The position numbers and the translations under genes were made by a program. From Halobiforma lacisalsi AJ5 (GTDB lineage: Archaea > Halobacteriota > Halobacteria > Halobacteriales > Natrialbaceae), in assembly GCF_000226975.2 (NCBI RefSeq), contig NZ_CP019285.1:1240001-1304000 (forward strand): 64,000 nt of DNA, given 5' to 3'. Every line of letters begins with the position of its first letter. Position 1 is the stretch's first letter. This document shows, one piece after another, positions 1,844-18,034 of the stretch. The notes beneath the pieces were generated by a model. That model saw only the letters and a list, made by a program, of their open reading frames with translations, made no database searches and was not told where the DNA came from.

Positions 1844-2867
1844 CCCCATCACCCACCGTCACGACGGACCCGACCTGCGCCCGTTCGTAGGTCCGTTGCC
1901 ATGCGAAGATCCGCCCCAGCAGGATCGTCCCCAACAGTCCGACGATCACGCCGTACCCTACGAGCACCGACGCCGACGCAATCGCCAGCGACAGGCGAGC
2001 GTCACTCGTTTCGTCGTCGAGCGTCGCGAGCGCCTCCTCGCGGTCCTCGAGCCCGTGGAACGTTGCCTCCGCTCGAGCGTCGGCCACCGCGTCGTCGACC
2101 GTTCGTACCTCCTGGTACTGCTCGAACGTCCCGAGGACGTTCGGCGCGCCGGCGACAGCGCTGCCGACGTCGTTGCAGTCCCCGCAGTCGTCGAAGAATG
2201 CCTCGGCGTCGGCTTCGGCGTCGTCCATCTCCGCGAGAGCGGCCTCGTAGGCCGCGGTCTCTTGCTGGACCTGGAGGTTGAACTCCGCGGCCTCGTCCGG
2301 CATGTTCGCCCGTTCGTAGGCCGTCGCGGTCAGCGAGAGCAACTCGAGCCGGTCGGGGGTCCGCTCGGCCGCCTCGGCCTCGTCGTAGAGGCCGTCGGCA
2401 AGCCCCTCGTAGAACCGCGTTACCGCGAGGTCGGCGAGCGTCGCCTGGGTCTGTTCGTACTCCTCTAAGTCGGCGATGTGTGCGTCAGTCTCCTCCGCGT
2501 ACTCCAGGCTCTCCTCGTAGTCGCCGTCCTCGGCGTGGCGGTACGCTCGATCGAACGCTACCATCGCGGCGCGCGCGGCCTCGAGTTGCGCGCGCTCGTC
2601 GTCGTCGAGGGTGCCGGTCTCCTGTACCTGGGTCACGGCGAAGGTCCGAATCGTCTCGAACTCGTCGTACTCCTCGTAGGCCTCGGTGCCCTCCATCGCC
2701 CGGAACTCCTCGAAGTAGTCGTCGGCCGTTTCGGGCTCGTCCGCCGCGGCGGCCCCCGCGAAAAGCGGCGCGGCCGCGACCGCTGAAACGGCGACGATCG
2801 CGACGAGGATCACCGCTCGAGCGTCGGCGCCCGGTGTTGTCGTCGTCAGTGTCGGTCTCGATCTCAT
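1836..2867 (-). CDS. Membrane-anchored helical protein, unknown function
   Basis: A 343-residue protein with an N-terminal signal or anchor segment (about 17-40), a long alpha-helical acidic middle and one strong transmembrane segment near residues 292-319, followed by a short basic tail. The helical part resembles TPR/coiled-coil helices (many Ala, Glu, Tyr and Leu at heptad-like spacing) but no family was recognised. A CxxC pair near residues 228 and 231 could bind metal or form a disulfide. It begins 2 bp after the stop of the 1015-residue gene and overlaps the next gene, so it belongs to the same operon. With the bulk outside and the tail inside, it could connect surface proteins to the cytoplasmic tubulin-like filaments; that is inference. 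Confidence 0.85.
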   Translation of the reverse strand: MRSRPTLTTTTPGADARAVILVAIVAVSAVAAAPLFAGAAAADEPETADDYFEEFRAMEGTEAYEEYDEFETIRTFAVTQVQETGTLDDDERAQLEAARAAMVAFDRAYRHAEDGDYEESLEYAEETDAHIADLEEYEQTQATLADLAVTRFYEGLADGLYDEAEAAERTPDRLELLSLTATAYERANMPDEAAEFNLQVQQETAAYEAALAEMDDAEADAEAFFDDCGDCNDVGSAVAGAPNVLGTFEQYQEVRTVDDAVADARAEATFHGLEDREEALATLDDETSDARLSLAIASASVLVGYGVIVGLLGTILLGRIFAWQRTYERAQVGSVVTVGDGDV

Positions 2868-2869
2868 CT

Positions 2870-5800
2870 CTAGAACACCGTCCGTGACAGTCGTTCGCGG
2901 AGGGAGTCGTGCTCGAACAACTGTTCGACCGCATCGAGCACGAGCAGGGACGCGTAGGCGGTGACGATCGCCTGGTCTCCCCGATCGGCGTCGCCGACCA
3001 GATCCCAGGCGCGGTTGTGCATCTCTCGGGCCGGCGCGATCTCGGAGACGTCCCGCCGGGCGTCCTCGATCTGCCCAGCGACGTCCTCGTAGCGTTGTTT
3101 GAGTCGGTTCCGCTGGCTCGTCGGATCGTCACTGAGGCGATCGAGCAACTCGGCGAGGTCGTACTCGCCGCGCCACCGGACGCCGGCGTCCGGCATGTCA
3201 GCACAGGCGGCAAAGAGGTCGACGTTGCGCTTGGTCGTCATCGCATCGTTGATCGCCTCGGTCGTCTCCGCGGCGGCCTCGAGGATCGCGTCCGCGACCG
3301 CGTCAGGGTCGTGGTCGCCGCCGACGAACAGGTGACCGGCGTCGGGCATCGACTCGACGGTCTCGAGCATCGACTCGACGACCGACGCGTAGTACTCGGG
3401 GATCGACGTATCCCGGCCCGACTGGGCCGCGAGCGACTCGAGGTCGCGCCGGACGTCGGCGATCCGGTCGCGCTGGCCCTGGGAGAGCGACCAGGTGAAG
3501 CGGGCGTCGACCTCGGCCGTCGCCGTTCCGTTCTCGCGGACGACGAGGTCGGCCTCGCCGCCGGCAAAGAGGTCCGAACGGTCGCCGGGCGAGGGAACCT
3601 CGACGCGGTACCGACCGGCCATCACGTCGTCGCGGGTCGCAGTCCCGTTGCGCCCGGTCGTCGTCCGGAAGCCCTTCGAGCGTTGCTGGAGGAACCGCTC
3701 GCTGTCCTCGGGCGTGACCCGAAGCGCCATCGACTCGGTCGCGACGCCGTCGATCCGAGAGACGATCTTCACCCGGCCGGTTCGAGGCTCGAGTTCGACC
3801 GTGCGGTCGTCGTTGCGACCGAACCGGACGGTCTTCGTCCGACTCTCGTACTTGTTCGCTTCGTGCCCGATCTCGACTTCGACCCCGGAACTCGAGCCGT
3901 CGTTCGGCGGTTCGATCGTCACCGTGCCCCGCTTGCCGGTCGTCTTCGAGGCGCCGTCGGCCGTGCGGACTGTCGCTCCGGGAACCGGGTCGCGGTCCGA
4001 TGCATCGACGACGGTGAGCGTCGTCTCGGAGGTGACGGTCAACACCGCACTCGAATTGCGTCGGCTGACCGTTTCGACGTCCGACGTTTCGGAGCCGTGC
4101 TTGGCGATCAGTTCCCACGTTCCCCGATCGGGCAGGGAAACGGTACCGCTCCCGCCGACGATGGTCGAGGAGCCGTTCCGGTCGCCGTCGCCCGCCTCGC
4201 GGTAGTGGACGGTCGCCTGACCGGTGAGTTTCCCGCTCCCGTCACTGATCGTCACATCGGCGGTGAAGCCGGGAGTCACGTCGGCTCCGCTCGAGCGGTT
4301 GCCAAGCAGAGCGTACGAAAGCGGCGCGACGGCGGTTCCGAGGAGGACGCCGCCTGCCCCGACGCCGTGGATGACCGGATCGATCGGAAAGACGTTCCCG
4401 GTGACGTAGAGCACGCCGATGGTCCCCGCGAGCGCCAGACAGAACGTGGTCAGCGCCGAGAGGGCGACCTTCGCCGTCGTCGGTTGCCCGCCGATGCGGA
4501 CCCCTGCTATGCCGATTCCGAGTCCGAGGACGAGCGATAGCACCACCGGCGACCCGATCGTTCCGACGACGATCGCCTGCGTGACCATCCCTGCCTCGTC
4601 GGTGTCCGCGGTGTCCGGTTCGACGAGTTCGACCGTCGCCGTTCCGGCGACGGTCTGAACGAGCACGGTGTCGTCCTCGCCGATGGAGTCGATCCCAGCG
4701 GACTCGAGGTCGAGTTCGAGCGTCCCTTCCTCGTCCATGCCGTCGACCCCGACCGTGTGGGCCGTGCTGTCGTTCGGTTCGAGGACGGCACCGGTAACCT
4801 CGAGGTCGGCCGCCGCTTCGTCGAACGAGAGCGTCGAACCGTCCGCCACCGCCGTAAGGCCGAACGGCCCGTCGTACTCGAGTGACTCGTCGATCTCGAG
4901 GTCACCGGCGTCGTTCGCGGCGACGACCTCGACGTCGATACTCCCCTGCGGTGACAGCGAGGAGAGTCCGAGGACGCCGGGTCGGTTCGGTTCCACGGTA
5001 GCGACGTACCGTCCGTCGCTCCCTTCCGCGACCACGTCGTACTCCTGATCCGTCTCGAGCCCGGGATACCACAGCGAGAGACGGTCGTCGATCGACCGGA
5101 GTTCCGGCTCGAGGACGATCGGCTCGTCGGGAGCTTCGAAAACAGCCGGCCCGTCGGACTCGGCCAGCACCGCGAGTTCGATCGGCTCGCCGGCACCCAG
5201 CGCGGCGACGCCTTCGCGCTCGAGTTCGAGTTGGCTGCCGTTTCCGCGGATCGTTCCCTGGAACGAGTCGCTCTCGGATCCGCTCTCTCCGCTGACGGCG
5301 ACCGTGTCGCCGGCGGCGACGCCGGTCGTCGCCGAGGCGTTCAGCGGCACGCGGAGTTTGTCGCTCTCGCTTTCGTTTTCGTCTTCGTCTTCGTCTTCGT
5401 CGTCGGTCGCGTCGGTCCACACGGGTAGATCGTCCGAGACGGTCACGGCGTGAAGCGGGACTCCTTCGTGGTCGGCCGACGCCGTCTCGCCGTCACCGGT
5501 GACCGAGACGGTGACGTTCGCGTTCGTCAACGAGACCCCGGCGGCGTCCCCCTCGTCGGGATCGGTGACGTCGAACGCGAACTCGGTTCGACTTTCGTTT
5601 TCGCCGACCTCTTCCGCGTACGCGACGTCGGCGTCCTCTACGTCGATGCGGACCTCTTCGAGGGAGTCGACCCCGGACTCGGACAGGGTCACGATGAGGT
5701 CGTGACCCTCGCGCTCGAGGTCGACCTCGAGGGCGGCCTCGCCGTCCTCGTTTTCGTTCTCGTTCCCGTCTTCGTCGGCCGCCGCGACGTCCGCGACGAC

Positions 5801-5917
5801 CGCACCGCCGAGCGCGAGTGCCGCGACGAGCGCGAGTGCGACGAGGACCCGTCTCACGGTCGTGGCGCGACCGTCGGGCGGGGAGTCCCGGCGTCGATTG
5901 CGTTCGTATCCTACCAT
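2870..5917 (-). CDS. Large multi-domain membrane protein (signal peptide, beta domains, 3 TM, carboxypeptidase-regulatory-like and helical domains)
   Basis: A 1015-residue protein. Residues 21-47 form a signal peptide. About 48-440 is an acidic extracellular beta-rich region with a DE repeat (residues near 170-185, from a repeated ttc-gtc codon tract at 5384-5404). Roughly 445-545 holds three hydrophobic segments. After them come two or three beta-sandwich segments with the feel of carboxypeptidase-regulatory-like (transthyretin-fold) domains, then a C-terminal helical domain with no further membrane span. It lies 7 bp after the tubulin-like gene at 5925-7151 and 2 bp before the next gene. 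The three-span topology would put the last approximately 470 residues on the opposite face from the N-terminal domain, i.e. probably in the cytoplasm near the tubulin-like proteins. Function unknown. Confidence 0.88.
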   Translation of the reverse strand: MVGYERNRRRDSPPDGRATTVRRVLVALALVAALALGGAVVADVAAADEDGNENENEDGEAALEVDLEREGHDLIVTLSESGVDSLEEVRIDVEDADVAYAEEVGENESRTEFAFDVTDPDEGDAAGVSLTNANVTVSVTGDGETASADHEGVPLHAVTVSDDLPVWTDATDDEDEDEDENESESDKLRVPLNASATTGVAAGDTVAVSGESGSESDSFQGTIRGNGSQLELEREGVAALGAGEPIELAVLAESDGPAVFEAPDEPIVLEPELRSIDDRLSLWYPGLETDQEYDVVAEGSDGRYVATVEPNRPGVLGLSSLSPQGSIDVEVVAANDAGDLEIDESLEYDGPFGLTAVADGSTLSFDEAAADLEVTGAVLEPNDSTAHTVGVDGMDEEGTLELDLESAGIDSIGEDDTVLVQTVAGTATVELVEPDTADTDEAGMVTQAIVVGTIGSPVVLSLVLGLGIGIAGVRIGGQPTTAKVALSALTTFCLALAGTIGVLYVTGNVFPIDPVIHGVGAGGVLLGTAVAPLSYALLGNRSSGADVTPGFTADVTISDGSGKLTGQATVHYREAGDGDRNGSSTIVGGSGTVSLPDRGTWELIAKHGSETSDVETVSRRNSSAVLTVTSETTLTVVDASDRDPVPGATVRTADGASKTTGKRGTVTIEPPNDGSSSGVEVEIGHEANKYESRTKTVRFGRNDDRTVELEPRTGRVKIVSRIDGVATESMALRVTPEDSERFLQQRSKGFRTTTGRNGTATRDDVMAGRYRVEVPSPGDRSDLFAGGEADLVVRENGTATAEVDARFTWSLSQGQRDRIADVRRDLESLAAQSGRDTSIPEYYASVVESMLETVESMPDAGHLFVGGDHDPDAVADAILEAAAETTEAINDAMTTKRNVDLFAACADMPDAGVRWRGEYDLAELLDRLSDDPTSQRNRLKQRYEDVAGQIEDARRDVSEIAPAREMHNRAWDLVGDADRGDQAIVTAYASLLVLDAVEQLFEHDSLRERLSRTVF

Positions 5918-5924
5918 GTCTGCA

Positions 5925-7151
5925 TCACTCCGCGTTCCGCTCCACGTACGACTCGAGGTTGTCGACGATGCGATCCAGTTCCGCCCGCGAGAGGTCGCCC
6001 TCGCCGCGACCCTGCCCGGCGAGGCTGTCGCCGAGCATCTCGAACTCGTCCCATGAGTGCTCGAGCAGCGGGTTCAGGTCGAACCCGCCGAGCAACAGCA
6101 GGACGTCGATGTCGCTTCCCCGACCTCGTTTGGGGGTGAGGCTGGCCTGGCCGGCGACGTTGATGTCGTGTTTCCCCGTCCAGTCGCGGAACGCACCGTA
6201 GACGTCGGGTTCGGTGATCTCGTCGTTCTCGATCATGCTCTCGGGAGCCCGTACGATCGCGTAGGCCGCCTGGGTCGTGCCGACATCCATCGGGACGTAG
6301 GTGTTCTCGGCGGCCTGATCGAGCATGTACTCGAGTTCGTAGACGTTTCCGTTGAGTTCGGTCGCGACGGCTGGCGTGAAGTGGTAGGCGTCCATCTGGG
6401 ACGGGATCGTGACGTAGTCTTTCACGTCGATGACGCTGCGCGTCTCCCGGCCCGCGCCGATCATCAGGTCGATCGCAGTGATGATCGCGTCGTTGATGGA
6501 GTCGTAGTGACGGCCGTTGCCGTTCTCCTCCTCGTCCAGGTGGGAGTTCGCCGCCAGCAGGACCATGTCGCCGTTCTGCTCCCCCTCGCCGGTTCGAAGC
6601 AGCCGGGAAAGACCACAGACGGCGTTGAAGTGTCGCTGGGGCTGCTCGTAGTAGTAGGGCCAGACGCCGAAGGCCGTGTGGATCACGCTGTCCATCCACC
6701 GCTCCGAGGCCCCGTTATCGTTCAGATCCTCGAGGCCGTTCTTGAACTGATCGACGACGTAGGGAATCGATCCGTTCCCGGTGCCGCCGCCGAGCGTGGC
6801 GACGTGCATGAACGCGTCGGTCGTGCCGAACTCCTTGATGTTCTCGACGATCCGATCGAGGTCCTCGCGGGCGCAGGCCTCCCCGTTCGGGAAGAAGTTC
6901 CCCGCACCCTGCTGGGAGCCGAACTCCAGCGCGTGGGATTCCATCATCTCGTCTTCGTCCCGGTCGGTCCCCATCCCGCCTTGCATCCGGTCGATCGTGT
7001 TCCGGAGGTCGGCGCGGTTGGTGTTCATGACCAGGATCCGGTCGTCGATCCCCGGATTCTCGCTTCGATCGAAAAACTGCGACGCGATTCGTCCGCCACC
7101 CTCTCCCGAGGCGATGACGCTCCATCTCGTAAACGTGTCCGTTCGTGCCAT
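5925..7151 (-). CDS. Divergent tubulin/FtsZ-superfamily GTPase (tubulin-like C)
   Basis: A 408-residue soluble protein. The tubulin signature loop GGGTGNG sits at residues 121-127, close to its place in FtsZ. Other superfamily landmarks are a glycine-rich first strand/loop (SGEGGG, 15-20), an Asn-rich MNTN at 42-45, a T6-like NSH at 202-204 and IDVKDY at 241-246, where FtsZ has its T7 catalytic NxDxxD. Length fits one tubulin fold with no long tail. It is clearly not FtsZ1, FtsZ2 or CetZ by eye: the first strand and the T7 context differ. The ATG is directly adjacent to the stop of the upstream membrane protein gene. Expected activity is GTP-dependent polymerisation; the visible residues permit GTP binding, while polymerisation is inference. 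Confidence 0.87.
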   Translation of the reverse strand: MARTDTFTRWSVIASGEGGGRIASQFFDRSENPGIDDRILVMNTNRADLRNTIDRMQGGMGTDRDEDEMMESHALEFGSQQGAGNFFPNGEACAREDLDRIVENIKEFGTTDAFMHVATLGGGTGNGSIPYVVDQFKNGLEDLNDNGASERWMDSVIHTAFGVWPYYYEQPQRHFNAVCGLSRLLRTGEGEQNGDMVLLAANSHLDEEENGNGRHYDSINDAIITAIDLMIGAGRETRSVIDVKDYVTIPSQMDAYHFTPAVATELNGNVYELEYMLDQAAENTYVPMDVGTTQAAYAIVRAPESMIENDEITEPDVYGAFRDWTGKHDINVAGQASLTPKRGRGSDIDVLLLLGGFDLNPLLEHSWDEFEMLGDSLAGQGRGEGDLSRAELDRIVDNLESYVERNAE

Positions 7152-9257
7152 TTATCGTACCTCGATCGCTGTTTCGGTGGTCGTCACGCTGTACTCCACG
7201 TCCGCGTCGGCGTCGACGGCCACGACCGCATCCCGGACGACCGAATCGGGAACTGGCGCCGACAGGAAGTTCCGCTCGAGTTCGTCGAAGGTCAGCCGGT
7301 CGCCCGGCTCGACGTTGTACCGGACGACGTTGGTCAGTTCCCGCTCGAGTTGCTCGCGGTCGTAGACGACGACGTCGTCGCCGTCCCGACAGACGTCGTA
7401 GGCCGTCTCCTCGGCCCACGCTGCCAGGAGACACGGTGCGTGGCTGTCCCGAACGGGCAAGTCCATCGCCGTCGAAACGTATCCCTCGTCGGCGAACAGG
7501 TCCCCGAGACGGGGTCGCATCTCCGGCAGGACCTCCTCCATGTCGGCATCGACGTCCTCACAGAGTTGCTCTCGAAGCCCGCGCTCGACGAACTCGACGT
7601 CGATCGTCGTCTCGCCGTCGACCCGAATTTCCCGCTCGACGGGGGCGAAATCCTCGTCGCCCGGATCGGCCGCGAGAGTGTGTGTCCCCGCCGGCACGTC
7701 CGGGAACGTCGCGGTGCCGGCGATTCGCGTCTCGAGGGTCTCGGTCGCCGCGTAGCCGTCGGTCAACTCGAGCGTGGCGGTCCGGACGTCGCCACCGCGC
7801 TCGTAGGTCACCTCGACCGCGAGTTCGTAGGTCTCGACGTCGCCGCGCCTGAGCACGGGAACGTCGGGGTCGAACTCGACGCCGTCGTTGCGTCGGAAGT
7901 ACAGGCCGAGGAACTGGTCGGCGTGACGCATCGGCAGGTCGTCGCCGGTGACCTCTCCTTCGCGCTCGAGGGTCGTCTCGATCGTGTCGGCGACGTCGTC
8001 GTAGGCGTCGACGACCGCAGCCTTCGTATTTGCCGTCTCGAGGGCGTCCCGAAGCTGGGTCGCGACCTCGCTCCAGCGGTCGGCCAACGCGTCGAGGTCG
8101 TCGATCTCCTCGAGTTCGTCGACGAACCGCTCGCCGACCACCTCCGGCTCCGCGTAGTACCCCGGCGGGAGGTCCGCTTCCCGCAGCGTTCGGACGTCGT
8201 CCTCGAGGTCGCGTTCCATCGTCGCGATCATGTCGATACACGTCCGGCGCAGGTCGGCCCGCGGCCGGCTCAGTTCCGCGAGGTCGAGCGCGGAGTCGAG
8301 CGACTCCACCTCGGACTCGATGCGATCGACGTCGTCGACGTACTCGGCGTCGACGTAGGCATCGACGTCCGCCCGGTCGACGGCATCGATCAGATCCAGC
8401 AGCGACTCCCGCTCGCTCTCGAAGGAGCCCGAGAACTGGTCACGAAGTCGGTCGCGAGCCTCGAGGATCCGCTCGACTGCGGTGCCGAACTCGTACCGCT
8501 CGAGCGCGGTCTCGGCGTCCTCGAGGTCGCGTTCGACGGCGTCCGCGTCGTCCGGCCGGACGTCGCCCCGGCCCATCTCGCGGACCGTCCCGATCGCGGT
8601 TTCGATCTCGTCGGTCGCGTCCGATCGCAGGCCGTCGATCGCGTCTCGACACTCCGGCACGGTCGCTCCCTTCTCGGGATCGAGTTCGGGAGACGAGCCG
8701 CGATCGGCGCTCGCGAGGTCGACCTCCGCGAGCCGCTCGAGGGCGTCGTCGACGCGTTCCTGCTCGGCCGCGCCGAACTCGCGGAACGACGATTCGATCT
8801 CCGCCTCGACGCTCTCGATCTCCGTCGAGAGCTGCTCGAACTTCTGGAGGTCGGCGCTTTTGACGCCCTTCCCGAGGTCGAACGCGCCGGACTCGAGGTC
8901 GAAGGAGACTCCCTCGGTTCGGAAGTCGCCCTCGATCGACTCGAGGCGGGCGTCCACGCCGGGGCTCCAGTTCGGATAGGCGGCCTCGAGGTCGTTCACC
9001 CGTCGTACGCACTCCTGGAACTCCTCGGCGACCGACCGGGCGCGGGTACGGACGAACTGCTGTTCGCTGGTACCGCTTCGGGCGACGACGCCGCGAACGT
9101 ACAGCGTGATGCCCACTACGACGACCAGCGGGATGCCGACGAGAACGAACCAGGTCGCGGCCTGGGAACCGGACCAGACGAAGATGCCGGCCCCGATCGC
9201 CGCCGCGAGCACGACCAGTCCGCCGATTCCCGCGGCGGTCTTTGCGTTCCCGTTCAT
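7152..9257 (-). CDS. Two-TM coiled-coil membrane protein with carboxypeptidase-regulatory-like domain
   Basis: A 701-residue protein. Two transmembrane helices (about 10-28 and 34-55) form an N-terminal hairpin, putting the rest on one side, probably the cytoplasm. Residues 65-400 are mostly acidic alpha-helix with coiled-coil character. About 440-550 is beta-rich, with a segment like carboxypeptidase-regulatory domains. The last 150 residues are mixed alpha/beta. A helical motif of the form AL-x-R-x-x-F-x-x-A with AR eight residues later (near residue 245) recurs in the upstream gene at 16270-17967, hinting at shared ancestry. It overlaps the previous gene by 4 bp and abuts tubulin-like C. 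No known family recognised; a membrane tether or regulator of the tubulin-like proteins is inferred. Confidence 0.85.
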   Translation of the reverse strand: MNGNAKTAAGIGGLVVLAAAIGAGIFVWSGSQAATWFVLVGIPLVVVVGITLYVRGVVARSGTSEQQFVRTRARSVAEEFQECVRRVNDLEAAYPNWSPGVDARLESIEGDFRTEGVSFDLESGAFDLGKGVKSADLQKFEQLSTEIESVEAEIESSFREFGAAEQERVDDALERLAEVDLASADRGSSPELDPEKGATVPECRDAIDGLRSDATDEIETAIGTVREMGRGDVRPDDADAVERDLEDAETALERYEFGTAVERILEARDRLRDQFSGSFESERESLLDLIDAVDRADVDAYVDAEYVDDVDRIESEVESLDSALDLAELSRPRADLRRTCIDMIATMERDLEDDVRTLREADLPPGYYAEPEVVGERFVDELEEIDDLDALADRWSEVATQLRDALETANTKAAVVDAYDDVADTIETTLEREGEVTGDDLPMRHADQFLGLYFRRNDGVEFDPDVPVLRRGDVETYELAVEVTYERGGDVRTATLELTDGYAATETLETRIAGTATFPDVPAGTHTLAADPGDEDFAPVEREIRVDGETTIDVEFVERGLREQLCEDVDADMEEVLPEMRPRLGDLFADEGYVSTAMDLPVRDSHAPCLLAAWAEETAYDVCRDGDDVVVYDREQLERELTNVVRYNVEPGDRLTFDELERNFLSAPVPDSVVRDAVVAVDADADVEYSVTTTETAIEVR

Positions 9258-10351
9258 CCGATCACCCCCAGAACTTGTGTGCCGCCGTCGATCACGACGG
9301 CGAAGACGGCGATACCGGCGACAGCCAGCAGGAGACCGATCAGCATCGGCAACAGCGCCGCCTTGCGATCGTAGCTGACGTCGCGGCTCAGTTTCATCTT
9401 CTCCTCGACGCGTCTCGCAGCGATCAGCGGCACTGCCGCCCCGGCAACCGTCCCGACGACCAATCCGCCGGCGAGCGAACCGAGCAACGAGAGCCTGACC
9501 GTCGACTGTGGTTCGGCCCGCTTCTCTTCGACGGCAGTTCCGTAGTTCTCGGTCGCGGCCTCGAGGGCGGTTTCCCGGTCCGCCCGTTCGGTTTCGATCG
9601 CCTCGATGGCGGCGAACGTTCCCGTTGCGTTCCCGTCCGCCGTCTCGCTTCTCAGGTGGTCGATCAGTTTCGTCTCGTTATCGATCATGTCCTCGTGTCG
9701 GTTCTCGAGTTCGCGCAGCGTCTCGTTCGCCTGCTCGAGGTCATCGCGATCGAACTCGCCGTCGTCCTCGATCGCGGTGATCGTCTCGTTCAACTCGGCG
9801 ATGGCGGCCGTGAGGTTCTCGCTCGCCGTGACGTAGTTCCGCTCGTGGAAATGGTACTGTCCGTCGGCCCCCGCAACCCAGTCGACACCCTCGAACGTCT
9901 CGTTCGTCGCGTACTCGCTCGTGGCGATCACGACCTCGACGCCGTCGGGGCGGTCCTCGAATTCGTCGGTCTCGACGTATTCGGGGAACGCGACCCGATC
10001 GGTCTCCGTGCCGTCGGGGGCAGTAACGGTGATCCCGTAGCTTCCGTCGACCGTCCCCGCGTCGCGGTCGGCCTCGAAGCCGGTCGTGTCGCTCGTGTCG
10101 AGCCACTCGCCGGTCGCCGGTTCGTCACCCTCGCAGTAGACGAGGTCGAACGTCGATCCGGCGTGGAGCGTGACTTCCTTGTCTTCGGCCTCGTCGTCAC
10201 CATCGACGACGGCGACGACCGTCCGCTCGTCGGCCTCGTACCCCTCACAGGGGTCCTCGACGGCCGCGGCGCTGCCGCCAAAGGCGACGATACCGACCGT
10301 CAGCACTGCCAACACGATCAGGATCGAGGCTCGCGTTCCTCCGCTCGTCAT
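9254..10351 (-). CDS. Signal-peptide membrane protein with extracellular domain and two C-terminal TM segments
   Basis: A 365-residue protein with a signal peptide (about 8-31, ending AAA). An extracellular domain of roughly 250 residues carries several N-x-T/S sequons and a helical stretch (about 175-280) with coiled-coil character. Two transmembrane segments lie near residues 286-312 and 330-355, separated by a short basic cytoplasmic loop. Two cysteines (C35 and one near 73) could form a disulfide. Overlaps of 4 bp on both sides place it firmly in the operon. No family recognised. The topology suits a sensor or anchor that passes information across the membrane to the cytoplasmic partners. 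Confidence 0.85.
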   Translation of the reverse strand: MTSGGTRASILIVLAVLTVGIVAFGGSAAAVEDPCEGYEADERTVVAVVDGDDEAEDKEVTLHAGSTFDLVYCEGDEPATGEWLDTSDTTGFEADRDAGTVDGSYGITVTAPDGTETDRVAFPEYVETDEFEDRPDGVEVVIATSEYATNETFEGVDWVAGADGQYHFHERNYVTASENLTAAIAELNETITAIEDDGEFDRDDLEQANETLRELENRHEDMIDNETKLIDHLRSETADGNATGTFAAIEAIETERADRETALEAATENYGTAVEEKRAEPQSTVRLSLLGSLAGGLVVGTVAGAAVPLIAARRVEEKMKLSRDVSYDRKAALLPMLIGLLLAVAGIAVFAVVIDGGTQVLGVIG

Positions 10352-10635
10352 CGTAGCTTCCCCCCGATCTGCTTGTTCTTGTACCAGTATGTGAGGCCGC
10401 TCGCGACGACGATGCCGAAGCCGAGTCCGATCAGCAGTCCACCGCCGACGAGCACGAGGGCCTGTCCCTCGAGTTCGACCGTGGTGATCGCCTTGTCAGT
10501 CACGTCGGTCGCCGTTCCGACCGGCGATTCATCGGTCCCGGCAGCGGCGGTCGCGACGGCGATACCGATCCCGAGACAGAGGGCTGCGGCCGCGCTCGCG
10601 GCCCGCGTGACCGTTCGGGACCAGCCCTGCATCAT
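10348..10635 (-). CDS. Small two-TM membrane protein of the tubulin-like operon
   Basis: A 95-residue protein. The start is taken as the ATGATG at 10635-10630, which overlaps the TGA of the tubulin-like gene upstream; a longer frame reaching 10794 would be read entirely inside that gene and has arginine/proline-rich shadow composition. Residues 11-32 are a signal peptide or first membrane segment. A short Thr/Asp-rich extracellular loop follows, then a glycine-rich second segment (58-84) and a basic tail (KNKQIGGKLR). Its stop overlaps the next gene by 4 bp. Glycine-rich small membrane proteins of this shape often oligomerise or bind a larger partner; here the partner is unknown. Confidence 0.8.
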   Translation of the reverse strand: MMQGWSRTVTRAASAAAALCLGIGIAVATAAAGTDESPVGTATDVTDKAITTVELEGQALVLVGGGLLIGLGFGIVVASGLTYWYKNKQIGGKLR

Positions 10636-11924
10636 GCGAGCAACTCCTCCGTTTCCCGTTCGTAGGCGTCCGCCGCGGCTTCGATCTCCTCGAGTCGGTC
10701 GAGATCCTCGCGCCGGTAGGTCAGAAGCGTCGTCACCGACGCGAGGTTCCGGTCGCTGAGCGCGACGCCCAGGTTCACTTCGTTCAGCCCGCAACTGCGC
10801 TCGAGGAACTCCTTGACCGTCCCCGTCTCGACGCTGTACGAGCCCGCCCCGAGGTTCGAACTCGGTGCCCTGATCAGCGAGATCGCTTTCTGTGCGTCCT
10901 CGACGTCGGCGTTCGCGACCGTCTGCTTGGAGGCTGACAGCCGCGACAGCGCCGCGCTGTCTACGTCCCGTTTGCCGACGAACGGCAACAGGTAGCCCGA
11001 GAGCGATCGGGTCATCGTCACCGATCGCCCGATCGCGCCGTAGCCCGGCCGCGACTCGTCAGTACCGACGCCAAAGGATAGCGACGTCACGATGTCCTGG
11101 ACGTCGATGTCCGGGGTGTCGACCCCGTCGACCTCGCTGGCGTCGACGCTGCTCAGCATCGGGCCGGCGACCATGTCGTGGATCGCCGTCGCCACGTACT
11201 CGTTGTACTCGCCGAACTCGCCGCCGGCGGAGTTGAGGTAGGAGATCCGCTGGTTGTCTACGAGGATGATCCCGTCGACCTCGTCCTCGAGCCGGTCGAG
11301 CCCATAACGGGCGTTCCAGGCCTGCCGGCCGGCGTTGGTCTCGTCGTCGGCGTTACTCCGGGTGTTCGGGAGAACGGCGACTGCGACGACCTTGGTTCGA
11401 CCGTCGGTGAACTCCTTGATCTCTCGAGCCAGGTGGGGACCGATCCCGCAGCCGGTCCCGCCGCCGAGTCCGAGAAAGAGGAAGGCGAACTGGATCGTGT
11501 CCGATCGGCCGGGGTCGACGGCGGGTTCCTCGTCGTCGCCCTCGCCCTCGTCATCGGCGTAGGCCGTCTCGTAGCCGCCGTCGAATTTCTCCCCGAAGAT
11601 CGTCTGTAGCTCCGAGGCGTGATCGCTCATTACCTCGTCGGCGGCGGCCGGGTTGCGCCCGAACCCGCCGGTGACCATCTCCTCGAACCCGGGTTCGGTT
11701 CCCTGCACCAGGCCGTGCTGTTCTGCGACGCCGTACTGATCCTCGACAGGCACGTTGGACAGGTTCTGGAGGTCCCGCATCGTCGAGTTGAAGACCAGCG
11801 GCCGACCGAGCGTCGAGATGTCGGTCGACTCGAACAGCCCGAGCATCGAGTCGTCGGTGTGATCGAAGATCGCGTCGACGATCGCTCCCCCTGCCTGTCC
11901 CGCCCCTACGAACAGGTACGTCAT
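10632..11924 (-). CDS. Divergent tubulin/FtsZ-superfamily GTPase (tubulin-like B), first gene of the eight-gene operon
   Basis: A 430-residue protein that looks most like CetZ/FtsZ of the three paralogues. GAGQAGG (7-13) is the T1 loop, GLGGGTGCG (152-160) the tubulin signature, VDNQR (222-226) a T6-like Asn, and IDVQDI (273-278) lies where the T7 synergy loop contributes the catalytic aspartates. Residues 112-140 form an acidic insertion before the signature loop. The C-terminus ends in a helical acidic segment. The start is leaderless: a TATA-like AT stretch sits about 22 bp upstream. Being the first gene of the polycistron, it is likely the most highly expressed. CetZ membership is the main alternative; the insertion, the GCG instead of GSG, and the operon argue for a separate clade. 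Confidence 0.9.
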   Translation of the reverse strand: MTYLFVGAGQAGGAIVDAIFDHTDDSMLGLFESTDISTLGRPLVFNSTMRDLQNLSNVPVEDQYGVAEQHGLVQGTEPGFEEMVTGGFGRNPAAADEVMSDHASELQTIFGEKFDGGYETAYADDEGEGDDEEPAVDPGRSDTIQFAFLFLGLGGGTGCGIGPHLAREIKEFTDGRTKVVAVAVLPNTRSNADDETNAGRQAWNARYGLDRLEDEVDGIILVDNQRISYLNSAGGEFGEYNEYVATAIHDMVAGPMLSSVDASEVDGVDTPDIDVQDIVTSLSFGVGTDESRPGYGAIGRSVTMTRSLSGYLLPFVGKRDVDSAALSRLSASKQTVANADVEDAQKAISLIRAPSSNLGAGSYSVETGTVKEFLERSCGLNEVNLGVALSDRNLASVTTLLTYRREDLDRLEEIEAAADAYERETEELLA

Positions 11925-12283
11925 GTGAATATCAGCCCGTTGTTTATTTCATACGGAAAAATAGTCGCTAAACGGTACATTTTCCGACGGTAGGTAGTAC
12001 TCGAGTACCGCGTAATAAAGATACTGGCCCTCGTCGATATCCTGTTTTATTCGCCCTTCTACTCGTTATTTGTGGCCGAATTAGTAAAGATATAGAGTCC
12101 TGGGTGTCGAATACTACCATACTGCTCTCGATTTACATAAGACGAGTCGATATGACGCCGTCCGGATAGTGTCAGAAATAAGTACACTGTCGGCCTGGTC
12201 GGCCCGGTTGCAGTTCTCGGCGACCGGCGTGGACTGGCGTCGACTCCCGATGTCCGGCGACGAACGGATTCCGGCGGCGGGGA
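11925..12283. other. AT-rich intergenic region between the two halves of the tubulin-like locus
   Basis: No credible coding frame. About 250 bp (11930-12180) are clearly richer in A+T than the surroundings, with several TTTATT/AATAAA tracts. It carries the promoter for tubulin-like B and presumably the transcription end of the 12284-14311 gene. No clean inverted repeat was found. Confidence 0.6.
11938..11952 (-). promoter_or_regulatory. TATA-like promoter for the tubulin-like B operon
   Basis: On the minus strand the sequence GAAATAAACA lies about 22 bp before the ATG at 11924. At that spacing the archaeal transcription start falls at or next to the start codon, which predicts a leaderless mRNA for the eight-gene operon. 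Confidence 0.55.
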
Positions 12284-14311
12284 TCAGCCCCGGAGACGCC
12301 GGAGCATGACGCTGTACTCGTTTCGCTCGTACAACTGTTCGACGTGCCCGAGCAGTTCGTCGGTCGCCGACAGGATCCCGGCGGCCCGCTCCGGGTTCCG
12401 CTCCTCGAGGGTCGCCGCCTCGCGGCGGAGGTCACGGGCCAGCGACAGGAAGTGGTTCGGGATGGTGTGGTTGTGGTCGGCTCGAACGCTGACGTACTCG
12501 TCTTCGATGGTCGCGACCCGGGACTCGACGTCGGATGCGAGTCGCTGGACGTCGGCCGATCCCTCGTCGGACCGGGACCGGGCAAGCCGCGGCAGGAGCG
12601 TTCGGTCGTAGAACGTACACTCCTGGTAGATCGCGTACAACTGGACGTCGTCGACCCCGTCGCGGTCGACCATCGCCTCGAGTTCCCGAACGCGGTCGGC
12701 GAGGTGGCGGTAGACCGCGCCCTCCTCGCGTTGCAGTTCGTCGTCCAGCGAATCGAGCCGCCGCCGGACGTCGTTCGTACCGATATCGGCCACCGCGGCC
12801 CGCAACTCGGCGTGTTCGTCGACGGTCTCGACCGTCGATTCGAGCACCGCCGACACGTCCGACTCTTCCCATCCCGAGTCGCCGAGTACCTCGAGTAGCT
12901 CCCGGGACTGTGCCGTCTGCGGTCGAACCGTCCGCTCGACCTCGTCGACGATCAGTGCCAGGTCCGTCCCCGGGGTGTCGAAGACGAGTTCGCCGTCCTC
13001 GAGGGCATCTGCGAGTTCGACCGTCCGATCGTCGACCTCGTCGGTCCGGAAGGTGAGGCCCCCGCTCCGGGCAGCCTCCCGACAGACGGTTCCGGCGGCG
13101 TCCTCGATCCGGTCGTAGGTTCGCCGGTACCGGTCCAGTTCGGCCTCGAGTTCGGCGATTTCCTCCCGTCGGTTCTCGTCGGGCCGACCCTCGGACGCGG
13201 ACGTGGATGCGGAGGCCGACTCCGACCTCGCCTCCGCGACCTCGGTTTCGAGTTCCAGAACCCGCTCGAACACCGGTTCGACGCCGTCGGCGATCGGTCC
13301 CTCCTGGGCCGCAAGCGACCGTTTCGCCGCTTCGACCCGTCGTTCGTCGGTCGCATCGTCGACGTCGGCGACGGCGTCGGCTACCGTGCCAGCACGCTCG
13401 AGACGGTCGACTACATCCTCGAGAACGTCCTCGACGCGCCCCTCGTCGGGCGAAGAAGCGGACAGGACGCGACACAGTTCGCCGGCAAGCGGGTCGCTCG
13501 GCCGAGTTCGGGACGCGACGTCGTCGGCAACCGCCGTCACCGGGTGCGGAGTCGATTCGGACGCGCCGCTCTCGCTGGGTTGACTGTCGCCGCTGACATC
13601 GCGACTGGGATCCGGATCGGGATCGGACGATTCGGCGGACGCTCCCGCCTGCTGACGTGCTTCGGCTCCGCGTCCGCGCCCCTCCCGTCGGCTTCGCCGA
13701 CTGCTGCCGGGATTCTTGATCTCCCGGACGCGCTGGCGGACCTCGGAGACGACTTCGTCGACGGTATCCGTCGCGCTCGAACTGATCCGGGTCGATCCCC
13801 CGCCCGAGGTCTTGATCTCGAGTTCGGTGAACGCGCCGTCCTGGTGGGACTGGACGCCGGTCACCTGATCGTAGTAAATCTCCTTGTTGGTCCCCCCGCC
13901 GACGCCCGACCGGGACTTCATGTCGTACTCGGCCCCCTTGTTGAGATTGATCGAGGTTTCGGTGACGACGATGGTCGTGTTGTAGTAGGTATCGGACGGT
14001 TCGACCAACAGCGGCGAACTCCCGGAGTTGTACGTGAGGTTGTAGAGGTTCGCGTCCTCCACGTCGATCCCCCGTTTCGCGTTGCGCTCGGACTCGCCGA
14101 TGAACTTCTTGACGAACGGCCGATACTTGTCGTTGATCTCCCTGACTCCCCAGTACCACGTGATAACGCCGGCCAGTATTCCGAGGACGAAGAAGGCCCC
14201 GACCTCCTCGACCCCCGCACCGATCAGCGTGAAGACGACCGTGACGCCGATGATGACGCTCCACGGCGACCAGCCGATCTTCCACCGGATGTTGTTGACG
14301 TCCCCTGCCAT
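12284..14311 (-). CDS. Two-TM protein with PH-like domain and long helical cytoplasmic region
   Basis: A 675-residue protein when started at the second in-frame ATG (14311), chosen because a TTAA box at 14339-14342 would place transcription there; the first ATG at 14323 adds four residues. Two transmembrane helices fill residues about 15-55. About 85-200 resembles a bacterial short PH domain (beta strands, then a VREVR-type helix), as in membrane-anchored bPH proteins. A disordered Ser/Asp/Arg linker follows, then 350 residues of acidic helix with coiled-coil character. It sits between tubulin-like A and B and points the same way. A membrane-bound scaffold for the cytoskeletal proteins is the natural guess. 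No family recognised for the C-terminal part. Confidence 0.85.
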   Translation of the reverse strand: MAGDVNNIRWKIGWSPWSVIIGVTVVFTLIGAGVEEVGAFFVLGILAGVITWYWGVREINDKYRPFVKKFIGESERNAKRGIDVEDANLYNLTYNSGSSPLLVEPSDTYYNTTIVVTETSINLNKGAEYDMKSRSGVGGGTNKEIYYDQVTGVQSHQDGAFTELEIKTSGGGSTRISSSATDTVDEVVSEVRQRVREIKNPGSSRRSRREGRGRGAEARQQAGASAESSDPDPDPSRDVSGDSQPSESGASESTPHPVTAVADDVASRTRPSDPLAGELCRVLSASSPDEGRVEDVLEDVVDRLERAGTVADAVADVDDATDERRVEAAKRSLAAQEGPIADGVEPVFERVLELETEVAEARSESASASTSASEGRPDENRREEIAELEAELDRYRRTYDRIEDAAGTVCREAARSGGLTFRTDEVDDRTVELADALEDGELVFDTPGTDLALIVDEVERTVRPQTAQSRELLEVLGDSGWEESDVSAVLESTVETVDEHAELRAAVADIGTNDVRRRLDSLDDELQREEGAVYRHLADRVRELEAMVDRDGVDDVQLYAIYQECTFYDRTLLPRLARSRSDEGSADVQRLASDVESRVATIEDEYVSVRADHNHTIPNHFLSLARDLRREAATLEERNPERAAGILSATDELLGHVEQLYERNEYSVMLRRLRG

Positions 14312-14335
14312 TGCAGAGGCCATGCACTCAGGCCG

Positions 14336-14346
14336 TGATTAACCTT
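14336..14346 (-). promoter_or_regulatory. TATA-like box for the PH-domain gene
   Basis: Minus-strand GGTTAATC centred near 14340 lies 29 bp from the ATG at 14311 and only 17 bp from the ATG at 14323, so it favours the inner start and a leaderless message. Confidence 0.45.
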
Positions 14347-14531
14347 CTGCCGTGATATGTCCGTTTCAGACGATATTCTTCTGTACTAACTCGAGCGGGC
14401 GAGAATATTTCGAATCCGCGACGGCCGCGTCGAGCGGACGCCGGTTCCGGTCGGCCGGAGTTCGCACGTCGACGGGAACGGAACGGAACTGAACGGAACG
14501 TGGCCGTCGGACCGACTTCGAACAACTACGG

Positions 14532-16160
14532 TCAGGCCATGTTCTCCCGGCCGAGACAGGAAAACAGCGCCTCGACGTGTTCCCACGCGTCCCGAACGTT
14601 CTCGGCCTGCTGGCTGTTGCCCTCCTGTTTGAGTCGCTGGGCGTGGTCGTACATCTCCTCGAGCGACGGCAGTTCGGGGTTCCACAGCGTCCCCCAGAGG
14701 AAGACGTCGTCCAGGTACGGCGTGACGAGTTGCTTGACGTGGATGTCGACCGACTCGATGCCGCTTACGTTCCCCGCGTCGAGGAACTGCTCGTCGCCGA
14801 TGATGTTCGCGAGCGTGCCGTCGGAGACGAACTCCGTGACCTCCTCCATCTTCTCTTCCGGGCCGTAGACGAGGAAGGTGCCGCCCCACGCGGTCGTCGG
14901 GTCGAACTCGGCGAGTTTGTTCTGGAACAGGGCGTTCCGGACCAGGATCTCGAGTTTCGACCGGTCGAACGAACTCGCCCGCGAGCGGCCGAGGACGGGC
15001 GCGAGGATCACCGCCGGCGTGAACTCGCTGTCGGGGTCGCGCTCGTACTTGTCCTGGACCGGCCGGAAGCTGTCGGCGGGATCGAAGACGTCGCCCATGA
15101 TCGACATGGTCGCGTCCCGGTCGAGGAACTGTGGCACCGACGACATGGTAAACGCCTCGAGGAACGCCACGAGCGGCTTGTTGATCTCCCGATACTGGGG
15201 CGGGTTGTACTCCTCGAGGCGTTCGATCCGGGGCCGGATGTCGGCCTGGACGTTCTCGAGCCGGTTGTTGTCGAAGGGGATGATCGCGTCGACGGTCCGC
15301 GAGGCGCGGGCGAGGCCGACGACGCCGTTGACCTTCGCACGGCCGCCGAACTCCGAGTACTCGGTCCCCTTCGAGGGGATGACGATGCTGCTGAACAGCG
15401 GCTTCGGGACGACGAGGTCGTCCTCGAGGACCTCCTCGCGGATCTTCTCGGCCAGCACGGGCGTCGACCCACAGCCGGTCCCCTTCGTGACGCTGTGGAC
15501 GAACATGACTGCCTGGGAGTCCTGGATCCGGTCCTTCCGCAGGTCCCACCGTTCACGGAAGGGGTCGCCGTCGTCCGCGAAGTCGGCCTCGACGAGTTTC
15601 TTCCCGATGTCCCAGCGGTAGCCGGCCCCCGCGTAGTCGTGTTTCCCGAAGCCGATGATACAGTTCGGAAGGAGGTCGTTCCGGCTGTACTCCTTCTCTT
15701 CCTGGGCGTAGTAGGTCTGCTCGAGTTCGCTAACGTTCGTGTTCAGCGGCCCGTAGCCGGCGAGTCCGCCGTTCCAGATGCGAGCGCGGCGCTCGTTGTT
15801 CGCCTCGAGGGTGTCCCGGCGAAGCAGGATCGCGTCGAGGATGTTGTTCCCCGCGCCGCCGACCCCCACGAGGTACCACTTCTTCCCGTAGGGGTCGTCC
15901 ATCAGGTCGTCGCTCGGGGTCTCGGCCGGCCCGCGGCTCCCGCCCGCGTCGACCGACCCCGGCCCCGCGCCGGAGCCCAGTCCGTCCTCGGCGTCTGGTT
16001 CGTCGGGTTCGGGCTCCGCGAAGACCTCCGCCTCGAGGTCCGGATACACCTGTTCGACCGACGCCGGTTCGTCTCCGTGTGCGTTGCGAACGTGCTCGAC
16101 GAGCGAGTCGCCGTCCCACTCGTCCGCCCGTTTCATACAGATTTTACAGATAGTGCTCAT
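14532..16160 (-). CDS. Tubulin/FtsZ-superfamily protein with N-terminal C2H2 zinc finger (tubulin-like A)
   Basis: A 542-residue protein. Residues 5-28 form a zinc-finger pattern C-x2-C-x14-H-x4-H. An acidic Gly/Pro linker (about 35-90) leads to a tubulin-like fold: VGVGGAGNN (98-106) is the T1 loop, KGTGCGS (226-232) a degenerate tubulin signature in which the first two glycines are lost, DNNR (297-300) a T6-like site, and FDPADS (359-364) a possible T7 loop with Asp-x-x-Asp. Insertions after T1 make it about 100 residues longer than FtsZ. The zinc finger could bind protein or nucleic acid. GTP binding is plausible; the altered signature raises the possibility of weak hydrolysis. It is flanked by TM/coiled-coil genes on both sides. 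Confidence 0.85.
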   Translation of the reverse strand: MSTICKICMKRADEWDGDSLVEHVRNAHGDEPASVEQVYPDLEAEVFAEPEPDEPDAEDGLGSGAGPGSVDAGGSRGPAETPSDDLMDDPYGKKWYLVGVGGAGNNILDAILLRRDTLEANNERRARIWNGGLAGYGPLNTNVSELEQTYYAQEEKEYSRNDLLPNCIIGFGKHDYAGAGYRWDIGKKLVEADFADDGDPFRERWDLRKDRIQDSQAVMFVHSVTKGTGCGSTPVLAEKIREEVLEDDLVVPKPLFSSIVIPSKGTEYSEFGGRAKVNGVVGLARASRTVDAIIPFDNNRLENVQADIRPRIERLEEYNPPQYREINKPLVAFLEAFTMSSVPQFLDRDATMSIMGDVFDPADSFRPVQDKYERDPDSEFTPAVILAPVLGRSRASSFDRSKLEILVRNALFQNKLAEFDPTTAWGGTFLVYGPEEKMEEVTEFVSDGTLANIIGDEQFLDAGNVSGIESVDIHVKQLVTPYLDDVFLWGTLWNPELPSLEEMYDHAQRLKQEGNSQQAENVRDAWEHVEALFSCLGRENMA

Positions 16161-16189
16161 GTTCGGATGTCGTACTCGTTCGTCGGATC

Positions 16190-16200
16190 GTGCTTTAGGT
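16190..16200 (-). promoter_or_regulatory. TATA-like box before tubulin-like A
   Basis: Minus-strand CCTAAAGC at about 16192-16199 is 34 bp upstream of the ATG at 16160, giving a predicted leader of about 8 nt. The 109-bp gap after the upstream gene leaves room for a separate promoter. Confidence 0.35.
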
Positions 16201-16269
16201 TTCGGGTCGTTTCGCCGGCGGTCGTAAGCCGGGGATCGATTCCAGTCGCCGGCGCTGCCGTCGGCCGGA

Positions 16270-17967
16270 TCATCCGCCGTACCTGTCCGCGAACCGTTCC
16301 CGGAGCGTCTCGAGGCCGGCGTCGACGCCCGTGTGCTCGTCGAATCGGATCTCGAGGAAGCCCGGCGGTGCGCCCTCCTGTAGCTCGACGTCGACGACGA
16401 CGTCGGTCTGTCGCCGGCAGAACCGTGCCAGTTCCTCGAGAACGGCCGGTTCCGCGACCGGGTCCGGCAGCCGCTCGGTCTGGCACTCGACGCTCGCGGC
16501 GTCGCCGACCCCGTCCAGTTCCCGCAGGACGTACAGGATCTCGTCGGCGATCGATTCGGGGGTGACCGCCTCGCGTGCTCGTTCTCGGTCGGTTCCCCGG
16601 CTGTCTCCCGGCTTCGGATCGCTCGAGGAAGCGGGAGGTGGATCGGAGCCGGGATCGGAACCTGGACCGGAGCCGGGATCGATCCCCTTCCGGCCGGTTT
16701 CGCCCTGGCGATCGCGGTCCCCCCTGCTTTCCTTCTGGACCTTCTCGAGGACGATTTCCCGCGCCTCCCGGTCGAGGTCGACCGCCACGTCGTGCCGCCG
16801 CGTGACGAGCGGGACGACGTCGGCGACGAGCGCCAGCGGTACCTCCTCCGGGACGTCGATCCTGCCCCGGCCGTGATCGACCGTTCCGACTACGCCGCCG
16901 AGGAAGTCCACCGTCACCAGCAATTCGTCGCTGCTCGCCCGGGCCTGGTCCAGCGTCCGCATCGCCTCGTCGAACGTACAGCGGTGCAGCGCCCGGGTCG
17001 CGTCCGAGAGCAGGCGTTCGATCTCGACGACGCCGTCGATCGATTCGTGTCGGCCCTCGACGACGAACTCGCCGATGCGGTCCCCGAGGTCGTCCTCGAG
17101 TCGGTCGGCCAGTTCCCGGACGTCCGCGAGCGTCTCCTCGACGGCCTCACGGCGGTCCGTAAACGCCTCCTCCTGGCGGCGGACGTAGGTCTCGATCTCG
17201 CGGCAGTGGTCGTACAGGGCCCCGATCGTCCGTGCGGCGTCCCGGACGTGCCGTTCCTCCTCGAGGACGTCCGCGGCGACGGATTCGACGTCGGCGACGT
17301 GGATCGTCCCGTCCGAGGGCGGGAGCGTGACCTCGCGGTACTGGCTCGGCAGGTTCACGATCTCGTAGGGTTCGCCGAACGCGGAGGAGACGCCCGGATC
17401 GAGGCGACCGTCGGCGATCGCCTCCTCGAGCGCGGTGCGCAACTCGCGTTCCAGTCGGTCGATCTCCCGTTTCGGGTCCGTGGCCGAATCCGGGTCGAAC
17501 GCCCGGGCCCGGTCGACCGCCGCGGGCGCGATCGGCTCGAGGCGCTCGAGCGTTCCGTCCCCGATTCGTTCCTCGAACGCGACTCGCGGGTCCTCGTCTC
17601 CGCCCAGTGTGGACGACGGTCGGTCGTCCGTTCCGGAACCGCCGTCGACGCGGGAGTCGGTCGACGCCTCCCTCTCGCTTCTCCCTTCGTTCGCGGCCGT
17701 TGCGGTCGATCCCGACCGGGCGCGAACTGCGGCGGCGAGTCCACCGCCGAGGACGAGCACCCCGCCGACTACGAGCGCGAGGCCGACCCCGGTGCCGAGG
17801 TCCCCCGCGACGCCGACCGTCGGCTCGAGGGCGGCGACTCCCCGCGAGAGCGACGTGACGGCCGGATCGATCACCTCCGGGAACGACGTTCCGGATCCCC
17901 GGTTCGTGGCGACCGCCGGCGGATCGCCGAACGGCCACCGTCCTCCCCCTGAACGGTCGATCTGCAT
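16270..17967 (-). CDS. Single-TM coiled-coil protein, first gene of the tubulin-like locus
   Basis: A 565-residue protein started at the ATG at 17967 (an ATG 9 bp earlier is too close to the TATA-like box). One transmembrane helix lies at about residues 55-80, followed by a Ser/Arg/Asp-rich linker and a large acidic region that is mostly helical (about 150-380). A further low-complexity Gly/Pro/Ser/Asp linker leads to an alpha/beta C-terminal domain of about 100 residues. The motif AL-x-R-x-x-F-x-x-A with AR eight residues later (near residue 325) matches one in the 701-residue protein at 7152-9257. No family recognised. Orientation and position make it part of the tubulin-like locus, though the convergence of function is inference. 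Confidence 0.82.
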   Translation of the reverse strand: MQIDRSGGGRWPFGDPPAVATNRGSGTSFPEVIDPAVTSLSRGVAALEPTVGVAGDLGTGVGLALVVGGVLVLGGGLAAAVRARSGSTATAANEGRSEREASTDSRVDGGSGTDDRPSSTLGGDEDPRVAFEERIGDGTLERLEPIAPAAVDRARAFDPDSATDPKREIDRLERELRTALEEAIADGRLDPGVSSAFGEPYEIVNLPSQYREVTLPPSDGTIHVADVESVAADVLEEERHVRDAARTIGALYDHCREIETYVRRQEEAFTDRREAVEETLADVRELADRLEDDLGDRIGEFVVEGRHESIDGVVEIERLLSDATRALHRCTFDEAMRTLDQARASSDELLVTVDFLGGVVGTVDHGRGRIDVPEEVPLALVADVVPLVTRRHDVAVDLDREAREIVLEKVQKESRGDRDRQGETGRKGIDPGSGPGSDPGSDPPPASSSDPKPGDSRGTDRERAREAVTPESIADEILYVLRELDGVGDAASVECQTERLPDPVAEPAVLEELARFCRRQTDVVVDVELQEGAPPGFLEIRFDEHTGVDAGLETLRERFADRYGG

Positions 17968-17987
17968 GTAGCACAACTGGCGAGTAG

Positions 17988-17999
17988 AGGGGTAAAGAA
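17988..17999 (-). promoter_or_regulatory. TATA-like box for the 16270-17967 gene
   Basis: Minus-strand CTTTACC centred near 17994 lies 27 bp before the ATG at 17967, the spacing expected for a leaderless haloarchaeal transcript. Confidence 0.45.
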
Positions 18000-18034
18000 G
18001 TATCGGCCTCGCGACCAGTACGGGCGGCGACCGG

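Follow-up and report, generated by a model that had tools for sequence, protein, structure and literature searches.

TubA, a tubulin-superfamily protein with an N-terminal zinc finger, is probably a fixed subunit of Halo_adaptin, the predicted ESCRT-like membrane-remodelling system of haloarchaea, in which it would be the finger-tethered partner of a three-tubulin assembly; we put the probability of this reading at about 0.6. The gene lies on the minus strand at positions 14532..16160 of the 64,000-nucleotide stretch of Halobiforma lacisalsi AJ5 DNA that was analysed (hereafter the window). TubA is always accompanied by two other tubulin-superfamily proteins, TubB and TubC, and by an ESCRT-like gene set, and it is thus probably a fixed part of a membrane-remodelling machine. 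Most likely, its role in that machine is that of a tethering subunit in a tubulin polymer bound to the membrane.

TubA is 542 residues long and is composed of a C2H2-type finger followed by an acidic linker and a tubulin-superfamily domain. The translation contains C5, C8, H23 and H28 as well as the KGTGCGS motif at residues 226-232, as reported in the original prediction. The tubulin fold that it proposed is upheld by a match to PF00091 over residues 97-304 (43.4 bits for a cut-off of 33). TubA differs from FtsZ in scoring far under the cut-off of the FtsZ model NCBIfam TIGR00065 (29.8 vs 295.2 bits), and no match to PF13809 (Tubulin_2) was found in the Pfam search up to an E value of 1. A model of the tubulin domain, built from a mixed alignment to which paralogues had been added, had a pLDDT of 51.8 and a pTM of 0.63, with most of the GTPase half between 55 and 78 and much of the second half below 50. 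Using Foldseek, this model matched CetZ, FtsZ and tubulin chains, with the CetZ1 and CetZ2 structures among the best, and comparisons with tubulins gave Z scores of about 20-21 and rmsd values of 4.1-5.2 over 298-334 residues. The ranking of tubulins above FtsZ and CetZ was not taken as proof of tubulin descent, since it comes from the best 50 matches only and chain length favours tubulins. The full-length AlphaFold2 model, computed with seven orthologues, was poor (pLDDT 36.8) and returned nothing under an E value of 0.001 with Foldseek; its best part is residues 1-50 (around 76), where H23 and H28 are found within one helix, and confidence is low beyond residue 50.

Judging from its conservation, the finger of TubA (residues 1-30; 16071..16160, minus strand) is real. 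All four ligands of the CX2C...HX4H pattern are kept in 30 of 30 aligned homologues, including two distant sequences with less than 40% identity, while the residues around them vary; a lone apparent exception at C5 in the column count is an alignment slip. No loss of the Cys or His residues was seen in close orthologues, which supports the proposal of a finger fused to a tubulin-fold protein. The pattern CX2C-X10-15-H-X3-5-H occurred in 3 of 20,000 shuffles of the TubA sequence, and, among the 45 called proteins of the window, TubA alone harbours it. As a Met residue is found shortly ahead of the first Cys in all homologues, the predicted start of TubA is sound. None of the Pfam zinc-finger models reached its cut-off on TubA or its homologues, the best being zf-met2 for TubA itself (E 0.021), and zf-Di19 (E 3.6e-4) and zf-C2H2_4 (E 0.004) for the distant homologues; the term 'C2H2-type' therefore refers to the ligand pattern only. 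The predicted acidic linker was also recovered, at residues 47-91 (15888..16022, minus strand): it contains 13 Asp or Glu residues vs one Lys or Arg, has the highest entropy of the protein and is variable in length, the distance from the finger to the T1 loop ranging from 57 to 156 residues across homologues.

The T4 loop (TKGTGCG, residues 225-231; 15468..15488, minus strand) is best described, from the alignment, as altered and not degenerate. It is invariant in the core clade, whose consensus reads xSVTKGTGCG[SA]TP, and with respect to GGGTGxG the first two glycines alone are replaced (T225-K226). The residues G227-T228-G229 and G231 are present in 30 of 30 homologues, as are G178 and G180 of T3, N298 of T6 and the aspartates of the T7 D360-x-x-D363 motif (15072..15083, minus strand), which aligns with the DxxD motifs of TubB and TubC. 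In the T1 loop (GVGGAGN, residues 99-105; 15846..15866, minus strand), G99, G101, G102, A103 and G104 are equally invariant, and N105 is found in 29 of 30 sequences, like N140 further on. The nucleotide-loop positions, including the T7 aspartate pair, are common to TubA, TubB and TubC. To call the signature degenerate is thus an overstatement, and given that T1, T3, the GTGxG part of T4, the Asn of T6 and the DxxD motif of T7 are conserved, TubA is likely to bind GTP.

In the original prediction, the altered T4 loop might make TubA a regulatory subunit that serves the other two tubulins and does not hydrolyse GTP; a capping role would be a variant of this idea. The replacement of the two glycines across the core clade, when TubB and TubC both keep GGGTG, is in line with this proposal, and TK in place of GG could indeed change the turnover of TubA's own nucleotide. 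However, the conserved T1, T3, T6 and T7 elements and the remainder of T4 argue against a non-hydrolysing protein, and the proposal is unsupported so far. In tubulin and FtsZ, each subunit uses its T7 residues on the nucleotide that the adjacent subunit holds. TubA may thus promote hydrolysis next door despite an altered turnover of its own, since the T4 substitution would affect the nucleotide that TubA holds and not the one on which its T7 loop acts. We regard a non-hydrolysing or capping TubA as a less likely alternative, and a regulatory, slow-hydrolysing role, also in the spirit of the original prediction, as possible.

The two other tubulin-like proteins that had been predicted do exist. 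TubB (10632..11924, minus strand; GGGTGCG; PF00091, 60.2 bits) and TubC (5925..7151, minus strand; GGGTGNG; PF00091, 35.9 bits) are encoded near TubA in all 25 genomes that have a TubA orthologue. In a small tree of 43 sequences, in which CetZ is represented by the three CetZs of the host genome only, TubA and TubA-like proteins form one clade (support 98), and TubB and TubC each form their own (support 100); all three are apart from FtsZ, CetZ and FtsZl1, with the branching order among them not resolved. Profile comparisons with TubA gave E values of 2.5e-13 for TubB, 3e-8 for TubC, 2e-6 for the host CetZ and 2e-5 for the host FtsZ, the scores of the latter two being lowered by their use as single sequences. 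The pairwise distances of TubA, TubB and TubC across the 25 genomes correlate (r = 0.85-0.94), for which common descent accounts in part.

TubA orthologues were identified in 25 of 292 Halobacteria, with open reading frames free of stops, and a TubA profile run against 246 genomes from across the phylum gave matches in the same order only. Three further matches correspond to distant TubA-like proteins in two genomes (G031 and G081) and to a cross-match with TubB in a third (G042). In addition to the 25 genomes with TubA, TubB and TubC are found in G042 and G048. The three tubulin genes follow the same order in the loci that were inspected, and all three are present in G014. The winged-helix gene of the ESCRT-like arm described below occurs in exactly the 25 TubA genomes, which belong to 13 genera, and is absent from the rest of the 292. 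In 20 of 23 inspected loci, the ESCRT-like arm adjoins the tubulin arm, 18 of them having a complete set of winged-helix, coiled-coil and ATPase genes and two being cut by contig ends; in the remaining three, all from one genus, the winged-helix gene is elsewhere in the genome. Two winged-helix genes of a single genus carry one in-frame TGA codon each (G038:C1:2567114-2568214 and G248:C2:61917-63017).

Both arms are carried by an island of approximately 26.7 kb, which starts before the window and ends at around position 18027 (window part, 1..18027), and is flanked by genes for a HAD-type hydrolase and a helicase. A clean empty site was found in a congener, G052, in which positions 1231371 and 1258027 of the host genome (G000) map approximately 10 bases apart, and the join is similar in G004. 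As the flanks are directly joined in these two genomes, the 26.7 kb are present or absent as a unit. The island is made up of two convergent arms, the tubulin arm and the ESCRT-like arm (L047:8878-16880, just outside the window). Past the end of the island, a MATE-type transporter gene (21130-22504, minus strand) is split into two frames, and a close relative has an intact frame of 468 residues (L010, 3674-5080).

The tubulin arm reads, on the minus strand, g38, TubA, g36, TubB, a small membrane protein, g34, g33, TubC, g31, g30 and g29, and membrane segments are predicted in most of its non-tubulin products. Upstream of TubA, g38 (16270..17976, minus strand) codes for a membrane and coiled-coil protein and keeps this place next to TubA in the loci that were inspected. 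The g36 protein (12284..14323, minus strand), called as a gene and also present in inspected loci, has N-terminal membrane segments and a long helical cytoplasmic part. The small membrane protein (10348..10632, minus strand), an ORF with phmmer homologues, overlaps the TubB stop codon. The g34 (9254..10351, minus strand) and g30 (1836..2867, minus strand) products are membrane proteins with signal-like N-termini, and that of g33 (7152..9257, minus strand) has two N-terminal membrane segments and a large cytoplasmic part. Lastly, g31 (2870..5917, minus strand) codes for a large membrane protein with CarboxypepD_reg-like stretches (PF13620, E 4.8e-4, under the cut-off), and g29 (1..1852, minus strand) for a 777-residue membrane protein that runs past the window start.

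The ESCRT-like arm comprises genes for a winged-helix-like protein (L047:8878- or 9064-10182), a coiled-coil protein (L047:10236-11300), a 245-residue protein, an AAA+ ATPase (L047:12029-13879; PF00004, 111.5 bits) and, in the same locus, a propeller protein of 1003 residues (PQQ_2, E 3.3e-5, 24.1 bits, under the 27.6 cut-off, and a weak CARDB match). The 245-residue protein is encoded between the coiled-coil and ATPase genes, such that the coiled-coil gene stands two genes upstream of that of the ATPase. Among PDB sequences, the closest to the ATPase are VCP-like or Cdc48 proteins; it is nearer to Cdc48/VCP than to a solved archaeal Vps4, and no MIT match was listed for it in the Pfam search. 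Sequence searches gave no significant PDB or ESCRT-III match for the coiled-coil protein and no significant PDB match for the winged-helix protein, whose sole PDB match is a SelB chain (E 0.09). Their ESCRT-III and ESCRT-II identities thus rest on the published description of the system (PMC10936438).

Halo_adaptin was predicted in Halobacteria, with Haloquadratum walsbyi as the reference species (Makarova et al. 2024, mBio, PMC10936438). According to the main text of that study, it comprises an AAA+ ATPase with a VAT-N-like domain and no MIT domain, a PspA/ESCRT-III-like coiled-coil gene and then a winged-helix gene upstream of the ATPase gene, a propeller/Ig 'adaptin-like' protein, further membrane proteins and one CetZ-related protein. 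The ESCRT-like arm of the island is a close match to that main-text description in gene order and kind, and the PF00004 and PQQ_2 matches fit it. The system itself is thus already known, although our literature search found no experimental study of it. The island differs from that account in having three tubulin-superfamily families, one of them with a finger, instead of one CetZ-related protein. No finger tubulin is mentioned in the main text. Halo.Tub proteins, as described in the main text of another study (Santana-Molina et al. 2023, PMC9871819), are divergent tubulin-like proteins of Halobacterota, encoded in several quasi-tandem copies among coiled-coil genes of unknown function. TubA, TubB and TubC resemble them in their divergence, multiplicity and coiled-coil gene neighbours; neither a finger nor an ESCRT-like arm was found for Halo.Tub in the passages of that main text compared here. 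CetZ proteins share with TubA the haloarchaeal tubulin superfamily and the GTPase fold, but TubA is outside the CetZ clade and is distinguished by its finger, its long linker, the change in its T4 loop and two long helices predicted as a pair at the C-terminus. Thus, as far as these main texts go, a tubulin with a finger, a set of three tubulins and the modular link with FtsZl1 described below appear to be unreported, and the supplements may list TubA unremarked.

FtsZl1 (PF13809, Tubulin_2) defines another predicted multi-component membrane-remodelling system (Makarova and Koonin 2010, PMC2875224). Like TubA, it is a divergent FtsZ/tubulin relative with a predicted function in membrane remodelling, and its genes may adjoin TubB/TubC or TubA-like genes; TubA nevertheless lacks a PF13809 match and is outside the FtsZl1 clade. 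In the two genomes that have TubB and TubC, g29-g34 and a propeller-like protein without TubA or the winged-helix gene (G042 and G048; loci L107 and L154), an FtsZl1 gene and multi-TM genes are found beside TubB/TubC. In G081 (L110), a finger-bearing TubA-like gene is close to an FtsZl1 gene. The TubA-like gene of G031 is near a protein kinase gene; that kinase (L109:13029-15665), encoded one gene away, is fused to CarboxypepD_reg-type repeats. These arrangements suggest that the FtsZl1 and Halo_adaptin systems have exchanged modules. From these few loci, we infer that TubA tracks the ESCRT-like arm and that TubB/TubC form a core that pairs with either set. The FtsZl1 link points to a single exchangeable core common to two membrane-remodelling systems that had been predicted separately. 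The broader idea of a tubulin-plus-ESCRT vesicle machine that is modular with FtsZl1 systems seems improbable to us at this stage.

The same loci bear on a rather doubtful alternative, in which TubB and TubC make the polymer and TubA is an adaptor that docks through its tubulin fold and links the polymer to the ESCRT-like arm. The FtsZl1 set standing in for TubA and the winged-helix gene in G042 and G048, and the exact tracking of the winged-helix gene by TubA, are consistent with such an adaptor. Nevertheless, the T7 aspartates and nucleotide loops are retained in TubA, as they would be in a subunit that forms polymers. We favour TubA as the tethering subunit within the polymer. All three tubulins would bind GTP and assemble together at the membrane, as an anchored polymer or patch, via their membrane partners. 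The T4 substitution would probably slow or alter GTP turnover by TubA, with its T7 loop still able to act on the GTP of its neighbour. The finger might be a zinc-stabilized protein-binding tag on a flexible tether, recruiting a protein of the ESCRT-like arm or cargo, and the AAA+ ATPase may then remodel the tubulin assembly as vesicles form or proteins are sorted. It is rare for a prokaryotic gene set to combine tubulin-superfamily and ESCRT-like proteins as fixed partners. Should TubA connect the two, haloarchaea would provide a compact system in which to address the joint shaping of a membrane by a tubulin polymer and an ESCRT-like module.

C2H2-type fingers often bind DNA. TubA might thus help to partition the chromosome or the island, in the way that TubZ partitions plasmids, and the location of its gene within an island that has a clean empty site elsewhere would suit such a role. 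Nevertheless, TubA has a single, acidic finger (residues 1-46 have 4 Lys or Arg vs 11 Asp or Glu) and belongs to a membrane and ESCRT-like gene set, which makes the DNA binding envisaged in the original prediction unlikely. With the many membrane partners and the strict link to the ESCRT-like arm, partition is a very improbable function. That TubA is a decaying, functionless paralogue, as the loss of two T4 glycines could have hinted, is contradicted by the stop-free frames in 25 genomes and the strongly conserved loops and can practically be dismissed.

A few other tubulin-like genes were encountered in these searches. Two additional proteins that matched TubB weakly are related to CetZ, and two genomes harbour CetZ-related tandem pairs with no island genes nearby (L115:7860-10808 and L116:8023-10845). 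A lone tubulin-like gene of the host genome, approximately 10 kb from the island, codes for GGATGGG in its T4 loop (L046:15699-16913, i.e. G000:C1:1220699-1221913). It was considered as a fourth member and rejected, being outside the island and clustering with CetZ-like proteins.
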